A stretch of DNA of 64,000 nucleotides from an uncultured Candidatus Saccharibacteria bacterium. Lineage in GTDB: Bacteria > Patescibacteriota > Saccharimonadia > Saccharimonadales > Saccharimonadaceae. The DNA is taken from NCBI GenBank assembly GCA_948435375.1, contig CAOJGQ010000002.1, positions 1-64,000 on the forward strand, read 5' to 3'. This document shows, one piece after another, positions 6,338 through 60,263 of the stretch (position 1 is its first letter; each line of letters begins with the position of its first letter). The notes below the pieces were generated by a model. It was given only the letters and a program-made list of their open reading frames with translations, was not told the origin of the DNA and ran no database searches. A program made the position numbers and the translations under genes.

Positions 6338-7369
6338 TTATGCAAGGGCAAACCAAGCTTCGATTTGGGGTGGAACACCACTGGCAGCAGCAGCGGCAAG
6401 AACGGGCTGGTGTTTAATTTCGGGGTGCTGGGAGAGAAAAGCTTGAGCAGCGAACTGCATTTGGCACTGTTTTGCGGCGGTAATTTGCTCGAGGCTAGTA
6501 CCATGATTAGTATTTTTGCGATATTTAACTTCGGTGAAGAAAATTTGGTTTTCGAGGGTTGAAATTAGGTCGATTTCGTAGGCTTTAGTCTTGAAATTAT
6601 GAGCAATAATGTTATGACCTTGGCTCTTGAGATAATCCGCTACGAGATTTTCAGCATATTGTCCACGAGCCGTAGGGCTTGCGGTAATTGCGGTTCTGGG
6701 ACCAGATCTGGCTAAAATCGAGATGCCCGGTTGTTTATTTTGCGCAATCTTTTGGATGGGCTTGAAACTTTGGCGATGCTCAGGGCAAGTACCATATTTT
6801 TCTAGTGCGGCGCGATGAGCGGCAGTGCCGTAGCCGACGTGACGTTCAAAGCCATAGTCAGGATACTGGTTAGCGAGATTTTTCATATACTCATCGCGGG
6901 CGACTTTGGCGATGATTGAGGCGGCGGAAACTTCTTTGATTAAAAAATCGGCCTTTTTGAGCAGAGTAACACGGTCAGAGAGAGGCGTGTCGTCTAGAAA
7001 GTTGATCGTACCGTCGATGATAATTTCGGTGAAGGGAGTTTTGGTGGCTAGGACTTGTTTGACGGCGCGACGCGTGGCTAATTTCAAGCTAGCGCTGAGG
7101 CCACGCTGATCAAGTTCGGGAGCTGATACCCAGCCAAGTCCCGTGGCGGCAGCCTCACTCAGGATAATTTTGCTGAGAGCTGTGCGCTTTTTGTCAGTGA
7201 GCTTTTTCGAATCAGTCAGACTGTGCCAAAAATCTTGAATTTCCGTGGGTTGTTGTAGTAGATTTTGGGCAAAGAATTTTTCACCTAGAACTACGGCGCC
7301 AACAACAAGCGGCCCCGCCCAAGGACCGCGTCCGACTTCGTCAATGCCGAGAATACAAGTCTCGGGCAA
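6338..7369 (-). CDS. rnhB: RNase HII fused to a YraN (UPF0102) nuclease-like domain
   Basis: Residues 1-210 are RNase HII, which removes RNA from RNA-DNA hybrids and misincorporated ribonucleotides. DEVGRG at 10-15 holds the first catalytic acids, and IIDG and the SIIAKVARDEYM region follow in order. From about residue 235 a second domain starts (ARGQYAENLVADYLKSQG). It has the PD-(D/E)XK-like core EIDLIS and FTEVKYR typical of YraN/UPF0102. The two are often adjacent genes in bacteria; here they are one frame with an approximately 25-residue linker. It follows rplS with a two-base gap, a common bacterial order. YraN's own activity is poorly defined. Confidence 0.93.
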   Translation of the reverse strand: MPETCILGIDEVGRGPWAGPLVVGAVVLGEKFFAQNLLQQPTEIQDFWHSLTDSKKLTDKKRTALSKIILSEAAATGLGWVSAPELDQRGLSASLKLATRRAVKQVLATKTPFTEIIIDGTINFLDDTPLSDRVTLLKKADFLIKEVSAASIIAKVARDEYMKNLANQYPDYGFERHVGYGTAAHRAALEKYGTCPEHRQSFKPIQKIAQNKQPGISILARSGPRTAITASPTARGQYAENLVADYLKSQGHNIIAHNFKTKAYEIDLISTLENQIFFTEVKYRKNTNHGTSLEQITAAKQCQMQFAAQAFLSQHPEIKHQPVLAAAAASGVPPQIEAWFALA

Positions 7370-55376: not shown

Positions 55377-58300
55377 TTAGACTACAATATTGATCAATTT
55401 AGCGCCTTTCGGGATAATCACCTTGCGAATTTCGTGATCCATGGTGTATTTTTGGACATTTTGGTCGGCTAGGGCATATTTTTTGAGCAGTTCGGCGTCG
55501 TCCAAAGCTGCGGTCTCGACTTTCAGACGAGCGCGCAACTTGCCATTGACCTGGACTACCAATTCCACTTCATCAGCGACCAGATATTTTTCGTCCCAGG
55601 TCGGCCAAGTATCGTCGGCGCCCAGTTTTTCGAGTATTTCGGAAGCGAGGTGCGGCGCAAAAGGTTTCAGGAGTTTTGCAAGTGTAATCACATCTTCGTT
55701 AGTGTGACCAGATTTATACAAATCATTGACAAATTCCATCAGGGCGGCGACAGCGGTGTTGAAACTTTGGCGGTGGAGGTCTTCGGTCACCTTTTTGATC
55801 GCCTTGTGACGTAAAGACGTTTCGGGGCCTGCGAGAGTCTTTTCTTCGCCAAATGCTAGCGTCCAACAACGGTTCAAAAATCGGTAGACGCCACCAATTG
55901 CTTTGGTGTCCCAAGCGGCGTCCTGGTCGTAGGGACCGATGAACATTTCGTAAGTGCGCAGAGTGTCGGCGCCATAGCCGCTGTCGATCACTTCGAGCGG
56001 GTCGATGACGTTGCCCTTGGACTTGCTCATTTTTTTGCCATCAGGGGCGTTAATATAACCGTTGTAAAGTAGCTGTTTAACCGGTTCGCGGAAAGGCAAA
56101 AGCCCAAGGTCAGCGAAGAATTTGCACCAAAAACGCACATAGAGCAGGTGAGCAACGGCATGATCGCCACCGACATAGACATCGGTTGGAGCCCAATATT
56201 TGACCGCGGCGGGATTCCAGGCAGCCTGGTCGTCGTGCGGGCTAGTATAGCGCCAGAGGTACCAGCTTGAGCAAGCATAACCGTCAAACGTATCAGTCTC
56301 GCGGGTACATTTAATGTCATTACCATCAGTGTCTTTCAGCGTCACCTCGAGCCAATCCTGCGCCTTGGCGAGCGGCGAGCGGCCACTTTCATCCGGCTGA
56401 TAATCTTTCACTTCGGGATGCATGACCGGCAGTTGGTCTTCCGGAATGGGGTGCGCACGACCATCCTTGTCATAAGCGATTGGGATTGGACAGCCCCAGT
56501 AGCGCTGACGCGAAATCAACCAATCGCGCATACGATACGTCGTCTTCAGGCGGCCAACACCCATACCTTCGAGCCAAGCCACAATTTCTTCACGTACGTC
56601 GCTACTGTTCTTACCGTTAAATTTACCAGAATTGACCAGCTGACCTTCACCGTGATAAATCCGACCGGCATCATCGGAATTCTCCGGTTTTTCGACCACC
56701 TCGATGACCGGCAGATCGAATTTTTCGGCAAACTCAAAGTCGCGCTCGTCATGGGCGGGGACAGCCATAATAGCGCCGGTGCCATAGCCCATGAGAACAT
56801 AGTCGGCCACCCAAATTGGCATTTTAGCGCCGGTGGCAGGGTTGATGGCGTAGCTACCGGTGAAAACGCCGGTTTTTTCCTTGCTTTCCTGACGTTCGAT
56901 TTCGGATTTTTTCAGGGTGACGGTACGATATTGGTCGACTTTTTGGCGAGTTTCGTCGGTGACGAGATATTTGAGCATGGGGTGCTCAGGGGCGAGGACG
57001 AGGAAGGTGGCGCCGAAGATTGTGTCGGGGCGGGTGGTGAAGACAGTAATGTTATCTAAATCTGCGAATGTCTCAGCCGTTTGCCTTCGAGGCGCGTCCA
57101 AAGCACCTGCCGTTGCAGGGCTTTGGCGCTCGTTCTCGTCGTAACTCCGGATCCTCTCAGGCAGAGACTGAGACGTTCGCCGCTCATCAGAATCATCAGT
57201 CTTCATTGATCGGGCGATGCGGGCGAAGGCGAGTTCGAGTTCATTCTTCATGCGTTTATCGCAATTCAAGAATTCATCGCGATCAAGCCACAAAGTATCT
57301 TGCGTGGCTTTTTCATTATCAGACACTTCTGCGCGTTCATCATTTTCGAGCGTAAAATATACTTGAGTAGCTTCAATTTCGCGGTTGACGTCTTTATGTT
57401 CGGCATAAAAACTGGCGCGGTATTCACCCAAAATTGCCTCAAATTTAAGATTCTTATAACCAGTCTCTTCTAAGACCTCACGACGGGCAGCGGCTTCTGG
57501 CGTCTCTTCACCTTCGACGCCACCAATCACGGGCGCAATGCAGTCCATTTTCTTGTAACTAATCGCCAGCCACTGATTGGTCTTGGGGTTATGAACAAAA
57601 GCCTGGATGGTGCGACGTTTGGTATTCGTTTTGCCAGCGCGGGGTGGTTCGCCCACAAAATGTGGCCCGCCATCAATCTGGAACTTGATCTCGGCACCTT
57701 CACTGCGACCAATCCAATTTTTCTGCATGGTTTTGATCTTGTCGGGCCAGTCGAGTTGGTCGATGTCGTCGAGTAGCTCGTCCGCATAGTCGGTAATCTT
57801 GAAAAACCACTGTTTCATCTTCTTTTTCTCGACTTCATGGCCACAGCGCCAGCACTTACCACCTTCGACCTGTTCATTGGCGAGGACAGTTTTGTCGACC
57901 GGACACCACCATTGATAAGATTCCTTCTGATAAGCGAGACCTTTTTTGTAGAGCTGAAGGAAGCACCACTGAGTCCATTTATAATATTCTGGGTCAGAAG
58001 TATTAATTTCGCGGCTCCAATCGACGGCATAGCCGAGCTTCTTCGCCTGCTTGCGGAAATTCTTGATGTTGGTTTGCGTAGCTTCTTGGGGTGAAATGCC
58101 GGTCTTGATGGCATAATTTTCGGCCGGCAGACCAAAAGTATCATAGCCAAAAGGTCGCAGCACGTTCAGACCCTGCTGAAGATAGAAACGCGTCAAAACA
58201 TCGACGATGGTAAAATTGCGGACATGGCCGACGTGCAGACCAGCACCGGAAGGATAGGGGAACATTTCAGCGAGGTATTTCTTCGGTTTGAGACTACCGT

Positions 58301-58400
58301 CAGGATTTTTGGCATCGAGCGGGCCAGCCTTGAAAGCCTCCGTCTCGTCCCAAATTTTTTGCCATTTTTGTTCAATTTTCAGCGGGTCATATCTATCCAT
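55377..58400 (-). CDS. leuS: Leucine-tRNA ligase with inserted Nudix domain and palindromic-element segment
   Basis: Class I synthetase. The HIGH motif is HVGH (56-59), the ZN1 cysteines lie in WWCPVDK and KCWRCGHE, the CP1 editing domain includes TTRPDT (455-460) and GTGAIMAVPAHDERDFEF, and KMSKSKGN is present. Between residues 245 and 445, just where CP1 begins, an insertion brings length to 1007 against about 820 expected. It contains a complete Nudix box (PVIGGVEGEETPEAAARREV followed by LEETGY) at about 290-315, within a domain spanning 256-395, then a polar segment at 409-444 encoded by a palindromic repeat. The mRNA is leaderless (TGCTATAAT, six bases, ATG). Confidence 0.96.
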   Translation of the reverse strand: MDRYDPLKIEQKWQKIWDETEAFKAGPLDAKNPDGSLKPKKYLAEMFPYPSGAGLHVGHVRNFTIVDVLTRFYLQQGLNVLRPFGYDTFGLPAENYAIKTGISPQEATQTNIKNFRKQAKKLGYAVDWSREINTSDPEYYKWTQWCFLQLYKKGLAYQKESYQWWCPVDKTVLANEQVEGGKCWRCGHEVEKKKMKQWFFKITDYADELLDDIDQLDWPDKIKTMQKNWIGRSEGAEIKFQIDGGPHFVGEPPRAGKTNTKRRTIQAFVHNPKTNQWLAISYKKMDCIAPVIGGVEGEETPEAAARREVLEETGYKNLKFEAILGEYRASFYAEHKDVNREIEATQVYFTLENDERAEVSDNEKATQDTLWLDRDEFLNCDKRMKNELELAFARIARSMKTDDSDERRTSQSLPERIRSYDENERQSPATAGALDAPRRQTAETFADLDNITVFTTRPDTIFGATFLVLAPEHPMLKYLVTDETRQKVDQYRTVTLKKSEIERQESKEKTGVFTGSYAINPATGAKMPIWVADYVLMGYGTGAIMAVPAHDERDFEFAEKFDLPVIEVVEKPENSDDAGRIYHGEGQLVNSGKFNGKNSSDVREEIVAWLEGMGVGRLKTTYRMRDWLISRQRYWGCPIPIAYDKDGRAHPIPEDQLPVMHPEVKDYQPDESGRSPLAKAQDWLEVTLKDTDGNDIKCTRETDTFDGYACSSWYLWRYTSPHDDQAAWNPAAVKYWAPTDVYVGGDHAVAHLLYVRFWCKFFADLGLLPFREPVKQLLYNGYINAPDGKKMSKSKGNVIDPLEVIDSGYGADTLRTYEMFIGPYDQDAAWDTKAIGGVYRFLNRCWTLAFGEEKTLAGPETSLRHKAIKKVTEDLHRQSFNTAVAALMEFVNDLYKSGHTNEDVITLAKLLKPFAPHLASEILEKLGADDTWPTWDEKYLVADEVELVVQVNGKLRARLKVETAALDDAELLKKYALADQNVQKYTMDHEIRKVIIPKGAKLINIVV
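57069..57175. repeat. Palindromic element inside leuS
   Basis: GTCTCAG (57070-57076) pairs with CTGAGAC (57168-57174), and CAAAGC with GCTTTG inside. The flanking segments GAGGCGCGTC and TCCGGATCCTC match the intergenic element at 54090-54213, while the stem sequences differ. It is translated in frame as a polar stretch (SLPERIRSYDENERQSPATA). Confidence 0.6.
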
Positions 58401-58525: not shown

Positions 58526-58559
58526 AAAAACTACCCGCCACAAAAGACGGGTAGTTTTT
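58526..58559. terminator. Bidirectional terminator
   Basis: AAAAACTACCCG and CGGGTAGTTTTT form a perfect 12-base stem usable in both directions. It ends the minus-strand gene at 58591 and any short RNA from the plus-strand promoter at 58464. Confidence 0.75.
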
Positions 58560-58590: not shown

Positions 58591-59355
58591 TTATGGCTGC
58601 TCGGCACGCCAGATCACCTGCTCAGGAGCACCGCATCCGATACTAACAGTAACCGTAGATTCGTTGATATACATGGTGGTTTTACGCGGGAAGTCGAACC
58701 GGTTTAGGCCAATGCGTGCGCCAGCTTCACCCAGAATATGGTCGGGGCTATAGTCGACATCCAGGGTGCAACGTCCGACGGTGCCCATTTGTTCAGTGAT
58801 ACCGGCAGCAAGGCTCTCGCGGAAAATCTGCAATTCTGGTTCGGTTAGCTGGCGCTTGCTACCGCCAAACATGGTCATCAGATTAGCCAGGCCAGCTTCG
58901 CCATTATCCATCTTAGGATGCTGGATCATTTCCGCCCACCAGTCCACGGCCGCACCGATATAGTCATGCTCGCTGACTTTACTCGCGACGACAATGCGCT
59001 TGGGTACGTTCCAGCCGAATACTTCTTTGCATTCTCTGCGGACAGCTTCAGCAAAGTCGGGCTCAGCGATGGCATCAATTACCTGCAGAAGATAACGCAT
59101 CTGCGCTCTTGCTTGGACGCCATGGGTGATAAAATATTCTGGAAACTCCATTACGCCAGAAAAACCACAACGGTTTTTCTCCAAATCGTCCCTCACGCCC
59201 AGCAGTGTAACCACGACACCGCCTGGGTATAGGGTGCTATTGGCGACGCTGGCAAGATAATCCGTAAGAGCATAAACCTCTTCCGACATGCCGGGACAAA
59301 GCTTTCTCGCTTCGGCAAACTTTTTATTCACATCAGTCATCAACAATTCTTCCAT
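58591..59355 (-). CDS. Unknown soluble protein under a structured leader
   Basis: 254 residues, start at 59355 behind GGAGG. No signal or membrane segment. The sequence is a regular alpha/beta mix (EEVYALTDYLASVANSTLYP, GGVVVTLLGVRDDLEKNRCG, FGWNVPKRIVVASKVSEHDY) and ends in a beta-rich part (KTTMYINESTVTVSIGCGAP). I do not recognise a family or catalytic motif. Its roughly 230-base leader with alternative hairpins suggests conditional expression, and its own promoter and terminator make it a single-gene unit. Confidence 0.75.
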   Translation of the reverse strand: MEELLMTDVNKKFAEARKLCPGMSEEVYALTDYLASVANSTLYPGGVVVTLLGVRDDLEKNRCGFSGVMEFPEYFITHGVQARAQMRYLLQVIDAIAEPDFAEAVRRECKEVFGWNVPKRIVVASKVSEHDYIGAAVDWWAEMIQHPKMDNGEAGLANLMTMFGGSKRQLTEPELQIFRESLAAGITEQMGTVGRCTLDVDYSPDHILGEAGARIGLNRFDFPRKTTMYINESTVTVSIGCGAPEQVIWRAEQP

Positions 59356-59583
59356 ATTTCTCTACCTCCAAATTTTTTCCGTTTTCACGGTGCAAAATAT
59401 ACGACCGTAGTCTTATACTTAACACCGTAAAAAGCGGAAGGTATTGAGGTAAAGGAAGATGACAGCAGAAAATTAATGTTCGAAAACTCCTAATTCAGGA
59501 GGGTATTTCCCTTGCGAAAAATACCCTGTGTACACAGGGTGAACCTATACCACAATTTTTAGTCATGCAGATTCTCATCTGCA
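59356..59583 (-). promoter_or_regulatory. Riboswitch- or attenuator-like leader
   Basis: RNA from near 59583 contains, in order, GCAGAT/ATCTGC; ACCCTGTG/CACAGGGT followed by ATTTTT (59523-59540), a terminator shape; AGGGTATTT/AAATACCCT (59500-59508 with 59519-59527), which shares bases with the previous stem and excludes it; CTCCT/AGGAG; and ACGGTG/CACCGT closing a domain of about 45 bases just before the ribosome-binding site. No known riboswitch class recognised. Confidence 0.55.
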
Positions 59584-59590
59584 TACTTCG

Positions 59591-59619
59591 ATTTTATCAC
59601 AGATTTGATGTTTTGTCAA
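59591..59619 (-). promoter_or_regulatory. Promoter of the leader and the gene at 58591
   Basis: TTGACA (59614-59619), 17 bases, TAAAAT (59591-59596). Confidence 0.65.
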
Positions 59620-59693: not shown

Positions 59694-60263
59694 ATGAAAC
59701 TAAAAATCGTCCTCCATAACATCCGCTCAACCTACAACGTGGGGGCGATTTTGCGCACGGCGGAGGGGCTGGGGGTGGAGCGAGTGATTTTCTCTGGTTA
59801 CACACCGCGCTATGACGACCCGGAGCTTTTGCCACATTTACGGGAAAAGTTGAATCGACAAATTGCCAAGTCGGCGCTAGGAGCGGAGGAAATGGTAGCG
59901 CGGGAGAATGTGGATGATCTGCCGAGCTGGTTAGCAGAAGAAAAAGTACAGGGCGGACTGGTCATGGGTCTGGAAAATAATTTGGCGCCAGAAGAGATAA
60001 AAAGACGGATAATGCTTGGGGCGAGTGATTGGCTTGAAGAGCAAATGGTTTCTCAGCAGGCTCCGCCGGAACAGCTGATTTTGATTCTGGGCGAAGAAGT
60101 CGAGGGGATTCCGAGCAAAATCCGGCAGGAATGTGATTATTTCCTGGAAATTCCGATGCAAGGGCGGAAGGAATCTTTCAATGTTTCGGTGGCGGCAGCG
60201 ATTGCGATGTGGGAGATTTTGAAACCAAGAGATGATGAGATTGAGCAAGAAAAAACGCACTAG
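59694..60263 (+). CDS. SpoU/TrmH-family RNA 2'-O-methyltransferase
   Basis: SPOUT-fold methyltransferase acting on tRNA or rRNA. Motif 1 is VLHNIRSTYNVGAILRTAEG, motif 2 LILILGEEVEGIP, and motif 3 EIPMQGRKESFNVSVAAAIA, which forms the knot with the SAM site. 189 residues, without an extra RNA-binding domain. The mRNA is leaderless (TAAAAT, six bases, ATG). The target nucleotide cannot be told. One of the few plus-strand genes in this half. Confidence 0.92.
   Translation: MKLKIVLHNIRSTYNVGAILRTAEGLGVERVIFSGYTPRYDDPELLPHLREKLNRQIAKSALGAEEMVARENVDDLPSWLAEEKVQGGLVMGLENNLAPEEIKRRIMLGASDWLEEQMVSQQAPPEQLILILGEEVEGIPSKIRQECDYFLEIPMQGRKESFNVSVAAAIAMWEILKPRDDEIEQEKTH

Follow-up and report, generated by a model that had tools for sequence, protein, structure and literature searches.

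Transcription attenuators of the trp, pyr and his type combine mutually exclusive hairpins and a U-tract in a position between promoter and gene. In the antiterminators bound by BglG/LicT proteins, known as RAT elements, a short antiterminator hairpin overlaps the 5' arm of a terminator, and in the copy-control attenuators of the pT181/pIP501 plasmid type an upstream pre-emptor segment competes for a terminator arm. Transcriptional metabolite riboswitches likewise oppose a terminator to an antiterminator, and some regulate by sequestering the Shine-Dalgarno sequence, as is predicted for the gene described here. The leader analyzed in this study is carried, together with its promoter and gene, by the minus strand of a 64,000-nucleotide stretch of DNA from an uncultured Candidatus Saccharibacteria bacterium, this whole stretch being referred to as the window. 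It contains a terminator hairpin with a U-tract between promoter and gene and an upstream pairing that excludes this terminator, two of the features expected of an attenuator. In contrast to the trp/pyr/his type, the leader family to which it belongs has no conserved leader peptide, is used by unrelated genes, is often tandemly duplicated and possesses a fourth segment that would capture the terminator 3' arm and U-tract after read-through. The likeness to RAT elements is one of layout only, and no RAT consensus was seen when the leader sequence was compared by eye. Unlike the pT181/pIP501 type, the window leader is not accompanied by a detectable antisense promoter, since no plus-strand promoter with at least 9 of 12 consensus matches was found within 59356-59590. 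The family also differs from metabolite riboswitches by the lack of a conserved aptamer, of a common pathway and of an Rfam match, and a T-box model did not match the window leader. The attenuator is of a known kind, while its arrangement, portability and lineage appear, to our knowledge, to be new; in the open-licence papers searched, no family of regulatory RNAs was found described for Saccharibacteria.

Elements of the leader and their exclusive pairings

The elements of the window locus are as follows.

59591-59619, minus strand: sigma70-type promoter, TTGACA (59619-59614), 17-nt spacer, TAAAAT (59596-59591)
59565-59584, minus strand: 5'-terminal hairpin ATGCAGAT-GAGA-ATCTGCAT, located where transcription is predicted to start
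59544-59554, minus strand: segment 1 (UGUGGUAUAGG), candidate antiterminator strand, pairing with segment 2 and its loop
59533-59540, minus strand: segment 2 (ACCCUGUG), terminator 5' arm, from the sequence and compensatory changes with segment 3
59523-59530, minus strand: segment 3 (CACAGGGU), terminator 3' arm, from the sequence and a terminator-like scan call
59517-59522, minus strand: U-tract (AUUUUU) of the intrinsic terminator, from the sequence and the same scan call
59500-59511, minus strand: segment 4 (GGGAAAUACCCU), pairing with 59527-59516 (segment 3 and U-tract) as helix H2
59446-59453, minus strand: anti-Shine-Dalgarno strand UUUACCUC, paired with GGAGGUAGA in both the MFE and the centroid fold
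59376-59440, minus strand: long hairpin of the 3' domain (UUCCG..ACGGUG..CACCGU..CGGAA), z -7.7
59361-59369, minus strand: Shine-Dalgarno region GGAGGUAGA, paired with 59453-59446
58591-59355, minus strand: controlled gene, an orphan of 254 aa whose residues 129-252 match phrog_8937
58531-58554, no strand assigned: bidirectional terminator-like hairpin CUACCCG..CGGGUAG downstream of the gene, read from the sequence

The promoter agrees with the consensus at 11 of 12 positions and its -10 box is preceded by TG. Transcription is predicted to start at about 59584 and the ATG is located at 59355, which gives a leader of about 230 nt, the length proposed by an earlier sequence-only reading of this DNA. 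That reading had named a start of transcription inside the leader as one observation that would speak against it; a promoter scan of the window copy found no second promoter between the one at 59619-59591 and the gene. The folding energy of the whole leader was -90.2 kcal/mol, compared with -54.8 ± 4.1 kcal/mol for shuffled sequences (z -8.6), and each half was significant when folded apart (z -4.8 for the 5' half, -7.7 for the 3' half). On its other side the leader is bordered by a SpoU-type methylase gene (59694-60263, plus strand). A different leader motif, GACCATTAACAACCGAATC.TCTCAG, was observed directly after promoters in L013, L014, L015, L024-L026 and L028, upstream of what appear to be genes for small membrane proteins; the motif is similar to the region preceding the 16S rRNA in L020/L022 and may be boxA-like.

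From 5' to 3', the leader consists of the 5' hairpin, segments 1, 2 and 3, the U-tract and segment 4. The terminator stem ACCCTGTG-TA-CACAGGGT occupies 59540-59523 and is followed by ATTTTT at 59522-59517, an element already proposed from the letters and reported in the same place by the terminator scan. The sequence-only reading had also noted that bases 59523-59527 are needed by a second helix, AGGGTATTT/AAATACCCT. Both the helix and the sharing are present, but these bases form the 3' arm of the terminator and a 5' arm in the second helix only, and the latter is really a 12-bp helix, H2, in which AGGGTATTTTTC (59527-59516) pairs with GGGAAATACCCT (59511-59500) around a GCAA loop. Segment 1 had been missed. 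Pairing 1:2 is compatible with 3:4, and neither can form together with 2:3. Because segment 4 is transcribed after the terminator and U-tract, H2 alone cannot prevent termination and cannot be the antiterminator, for which segment 1 is the candidate.

Re-use of a terminator 3' arm and U-tract by a following helix was found in the window copy only among 148 terminator-like elements in 464 kb of same-genus DNA. A structure-only scan without sequence motif, covering 553 kb including the fetched leaders, matched members of the leader family only; as the presence of members was part of the reason for fetching its loci, the 464-kb scan is the cleaner control. An attenuator-like arrangement lacking the fourth segment was noticed at about 64575-64690 of contig 2 of the window genome (L157 575-690, plus strand), where a promoter is followed by a hairpin and a T-rich tail (CCTAAGAGAGATTCTTAGGTATTTTATC).

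Constrained folding of the 11 family members indicated that, in an RNA ending with the U-tract, the terminator fold differs from the best alternative lacking it by -3.5 to +5.1 kcal/mol. With segment 4 included, the read-through fold was predicted to be favoured in 11/11 members, by 2-13 kcal/mol, and segment 4 would therefore lock the RNA in its read-through state. In G430 the computed fold without terminator does not use segment 1. The balance of energies proved not to be a specific signature of the family: near-equal energies are also seen in many weak background hairpins and were for this reason not used as proof.

In the predicted fold of the window 3' domain, the long hairpin is flanked by UUUACCUC and GGAGGUAGA, whose pairing buries the Shine-Dalgarno sequence, in agreement with the earlier suggestion of further helices beside the ribosome-binding site. 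The same fold (z -6.2) is obtained for the leader of the orthologous gene in G252, where UCUCCGAGA pairs with UCUUGGAGG in the equivalent of the anti-Shine-Dalgarno pairing. None of the 57 pairs of a two-sequence consensus spanning both domains is broken, the changed pairs including three double changes, and all are kept between genes whose proteins are 61% identical. When searched alone in the genus, the 3' domain was present only in the window genome and G252. Since it was found in none of the other genomes of the genus, it belongs to the window/G252 gene, and the attenuator is more widely shared.

Distribution and conservation of the leader family

A DNA search of 149 relatives recovered two leader relatives, many of the other matches being to the promoter only. 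The oral TM7 HOT350 was added by a scan for the pattern in 84,980 species, which otherwise returned mostly ordinary intergenic terminators, and covariance models of the terminator/H2 core (R1 and R2) led to more members in the genus and the family. The covariance search advocated by the sequence-only reading has thus yielded homologous leaders, with compensatory changes in both exclusive helices. In total, the family comprises 11 leaders in 9 genomes, i.e. the window and 10 more Saccharibacteria loci: the window (G000), G252 (L119), G049 (L042), G039 contig 14 (L051), G039 contig 9 (L079), G155 (L088), G251 (L121), HOT350 L060/L061 (a near-identical pair counted once), HOT350 L074, G430 (L133) and G377 (L131). 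Members range from the same genus to the same family, G430 and G377 belonging to other genera of it, and to HOT350. The module is rare, clear members being present in 6 of 174 genomes of the genus. Weak model matches (L089-L114, L120, L122, L123 and L132) were rejected as not being leaders or lacking a promoter, which is the case upstream of L120 and L122. A search of Rfam 15 with the leader, at the gathering score and at E<=10, gave nothing credible, the matches below gathering being attributable to chance. A phage origin of the leader was also considered and dropped, as an exact-pattern search of viral contigs returned one ordinary terminator or nothing.

All 11 leaders share one arrangement, with promoter, 5' hairpin and segments 1 to 4 in the same order. 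In 8 members the 5' hairpin stands out significantly from shuffled sequences (p<=0.03 each), its sequences being wholly different; that such a hairpin is a general feature of promoters in the genus was unsupported in 31 background promoters. Linkers differ several-fold in length, and also in sequence, and the 11 members have no unpaired position in common other than in the segments and U-tract. CTGT...ACAG is conserved in sequence, as is the U-rich tract, the CTGT-to-ACAG distance being 0, 2 or 4 bp, and the flanks change together. Counts of such changes overstate the independent events, several members being related (window and G252; the HOT350 copies): at the terminator flanks 31 of 33 cells were paired with 7 double changes (permutation p 0.0016), and H2, whose counts are favoured by a search model that contained it, was paired in 98 of 99 cells, with 21 pair types and 20 double changes (0/5000 permutations). 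The terminator and segment 1 tests are free of this bias, and a covariation count on the fitted alignment was smaller than the H2 tally and concordant with it. The best single case is the G252 ortholog, in which CCC/GGG/CCC has become CTC/GAG/CTC in segments 2, 3 and 4 together. Complementarity of segment 1 to the terminator arm exceeded that of shuffled linkers at p<0.05 in 9 of the 11 members (Fisher p 8e-11), compared with 6% of 148 background terminators, none of which reached p<0.01; segment 1 is weak in G039 contig 9 (p 0.59).

Five of the 11 loci (G039 contig 14, G155, G251, G430 and HOT350 L061) contain two copies of a 33-38 bp unit in tandem, and HOT350 carries both one-unit and two-unit versions of the leader. 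In the three loci run through TRF the copies were 100% identical within the locus, and units differ between loci, so the duplications are recent or the copies are kept alike.

Genes behind the leaders

A co-directional gene follows the leader at 9/9 loci where the contig continues, its start codon being 183-392 nt from the leader start; contigs end inside the leaders of G049 and HOT350 L060/L061, whose genes are not visible. The window protein, previously described as unclassified, is indeed an orphan, but its C-terminal half matches a phage family of unknown function, phrog_8937 (E 1e-16), and a Faecalibacterium phage protein matches at 32%; phage matches were obtained for this half only. A structure prediction reached a mean pLDDT of 38, too low to be used. 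The G252 ortholog mentioned above has the same leader. Distant relatives of the N- and C-terminal halves were observed as separate genes in G034 and G061, and the leader is absent upstream of these half-homologs. A match of the window protein profile to the murC gene of G002 was judged to be due to chance.

The other genes are different. The HOT350 leader gene (L060 311-1096, minus strand) encodes a DHH-family hydrolase (PADLOC DHH_CorA, 3e-35), that of G251 a lipoprotein-like protein (PF25682, 3e-30) and that of G039 contig 9 a DUF2807 protein, and no family could be assigned to the others. The PADLOC models matched by the hydrolase are candidate defence models. A tie of the leader to one protein family was discarded, given these unrelated genes and the half-homologs without leader, and the device is therefore not specific to a single pathway.

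Proposed switch and competing explanations

With a probability of about two in three, we consider the leader to be a portable four-segment transcription attenuator, in which 1:2 together with 3:4 would correspond to read-through and 2:3 to termination. RNA polymerase would start at the TTGACA/TAAAAT promoter and make the 5' hairpin and segment 1, then segments 2 and 3. Pairing of 2 with 3 would create the intrinsic terminator, hairpin and U-tract, and release a short RNA of about 70 nt (OFF). If segment 1 holds segment 2, the terminator could not form and the polymerase would continue, segment 4 then pairing with segment 3 and the U-tract to lock the read-through fold (ON). For the window gene and its ortholog, pairing of the 3' domain with the Shine-Dalgarno sequence may provide an additional translational check. 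Computation supports the elements with their conservation and covariation, the complementarity of segment 1, the context and the distribution; that termination occurs at this site, that its balance is regulated and what kind of signal acts are inferred. The input is probably general, such as a trans-acting RNA-binding protein, an elongation factor or the speed of transcription, rather than a pathway metabolite, because genes without relation to each other share this module in other Saccharibacteria.

The sequence-only reading had proposed an unknown class of riboswitch or attenuator, of which the attenuator part is retained here. A small-molecule riboswitch, whose aptamer would bind a ligand and shift the balance between terminator and antiterminator, might be expected from the length of the leader, its strong fold, an expression platform typical of transcriptional riboswitches and, in the window, two domains with Shine-Dalgarno sequestration. 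The several-fold variation of the linkers and the lack of shared unpaired letters, of a common pathway among the controlled genes and of an Rfam family make it improbable, and the 3' domain, which would be the one remaining candidate for an aptamer, is confined to the window genome and G252. A leader peptide is also disfavoured since there is no conserved short ORF: the window has an ORF of 29 codons without Shine-Dalgarno sequence, and its ATG is present in G252 and G049 with TAG as the very next codon. This would leave a trans-acting factor or the speed of the polymerase as input.

An unregulated dampener, in which one or several leaky terminators would lower the expression of genes too costly at full promoter strength and the number of units would set the level, could account for the strong promoters, for the tandem units, identical in the three loci run through TRF, and for the unrelated, accessory nature of the genes; a promoter is also found upstream of the other leaders of the family. 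We hold it to be unlikely, as segments 1 and 4 are kept by selection although a dampener would not need them. The same segment 4 speaks against an independent small-RNA gene lying by chance upstream of a protein gene, since it would be outside the small RNA and yet covaries; the anatomy of promoter, 5' hairpin and 3' terminator suits such a gene, with an expected product of about 70-110 nt, but the co-directional gene at every testable locus and the single promoter of the window copy give this explanation a low probability. The least probable reading takes the element for a mobile, palindromic repeat of REP/MITE-like type or for a two-palindrome operator at the DNA level. The palindromes and tandem copies, the lack of relation between the flanks and the three copies in HOT350 would be in line with it, but at every locus showing both promoter and gene the element lies between them in sense orientation, with 1-3 copies per genome, its variable CTGT-ACAG spacing suits a hairpin loop and not a fixed dimer operator, and its flanks differ by compensatory changes. 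Spread in any orientation, of the REP/MITE type, was not encountered, the strong model matches being sense-oriented and in leaders.

Within the attenuator reading, it is possible, though we would say so only tentatively, that the leader is a lineage-specific, gene-independent module of Saccharibacteria acquired by several unrelated accessory genes, read by one common trans-acting factor or elongation signal, with expression adjusted through how many terminator units stand in tandem. Unmapped regulation is indicated by the recurrence of a control device before unrelated genes in the tiny genomes of these host-dependent bacteria. The family offers leaders suitable for testing, with natural compensatory mutants (window versus G252) and one- and two-unit versions (HOT350), and could be a starting point for the control of expression in Patescibacteria, named as a missing tool by a recent review (PMC11665869).

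Some observations concern other genes of these genomes. In the window, the editing domain of a leucyl-tRNA synthetase (55377-58400, minus strand) is directly preceded by an inserted NUDIX domain (residues 262-379, Pfam E 6e-11), and a single ORF (6338-7369, minus strand) joins RNase HII to a nuclease domain of the UPF0102/YraN type. Close to the family member on G039 contig 14, an ORF (L008 2796-3035, minus strand) ends in GYWWSSRGSS...NNRYNGFSLRC, which we take to resemble the variable C-type-lectin-like proteins of diversity-generating retroelements.
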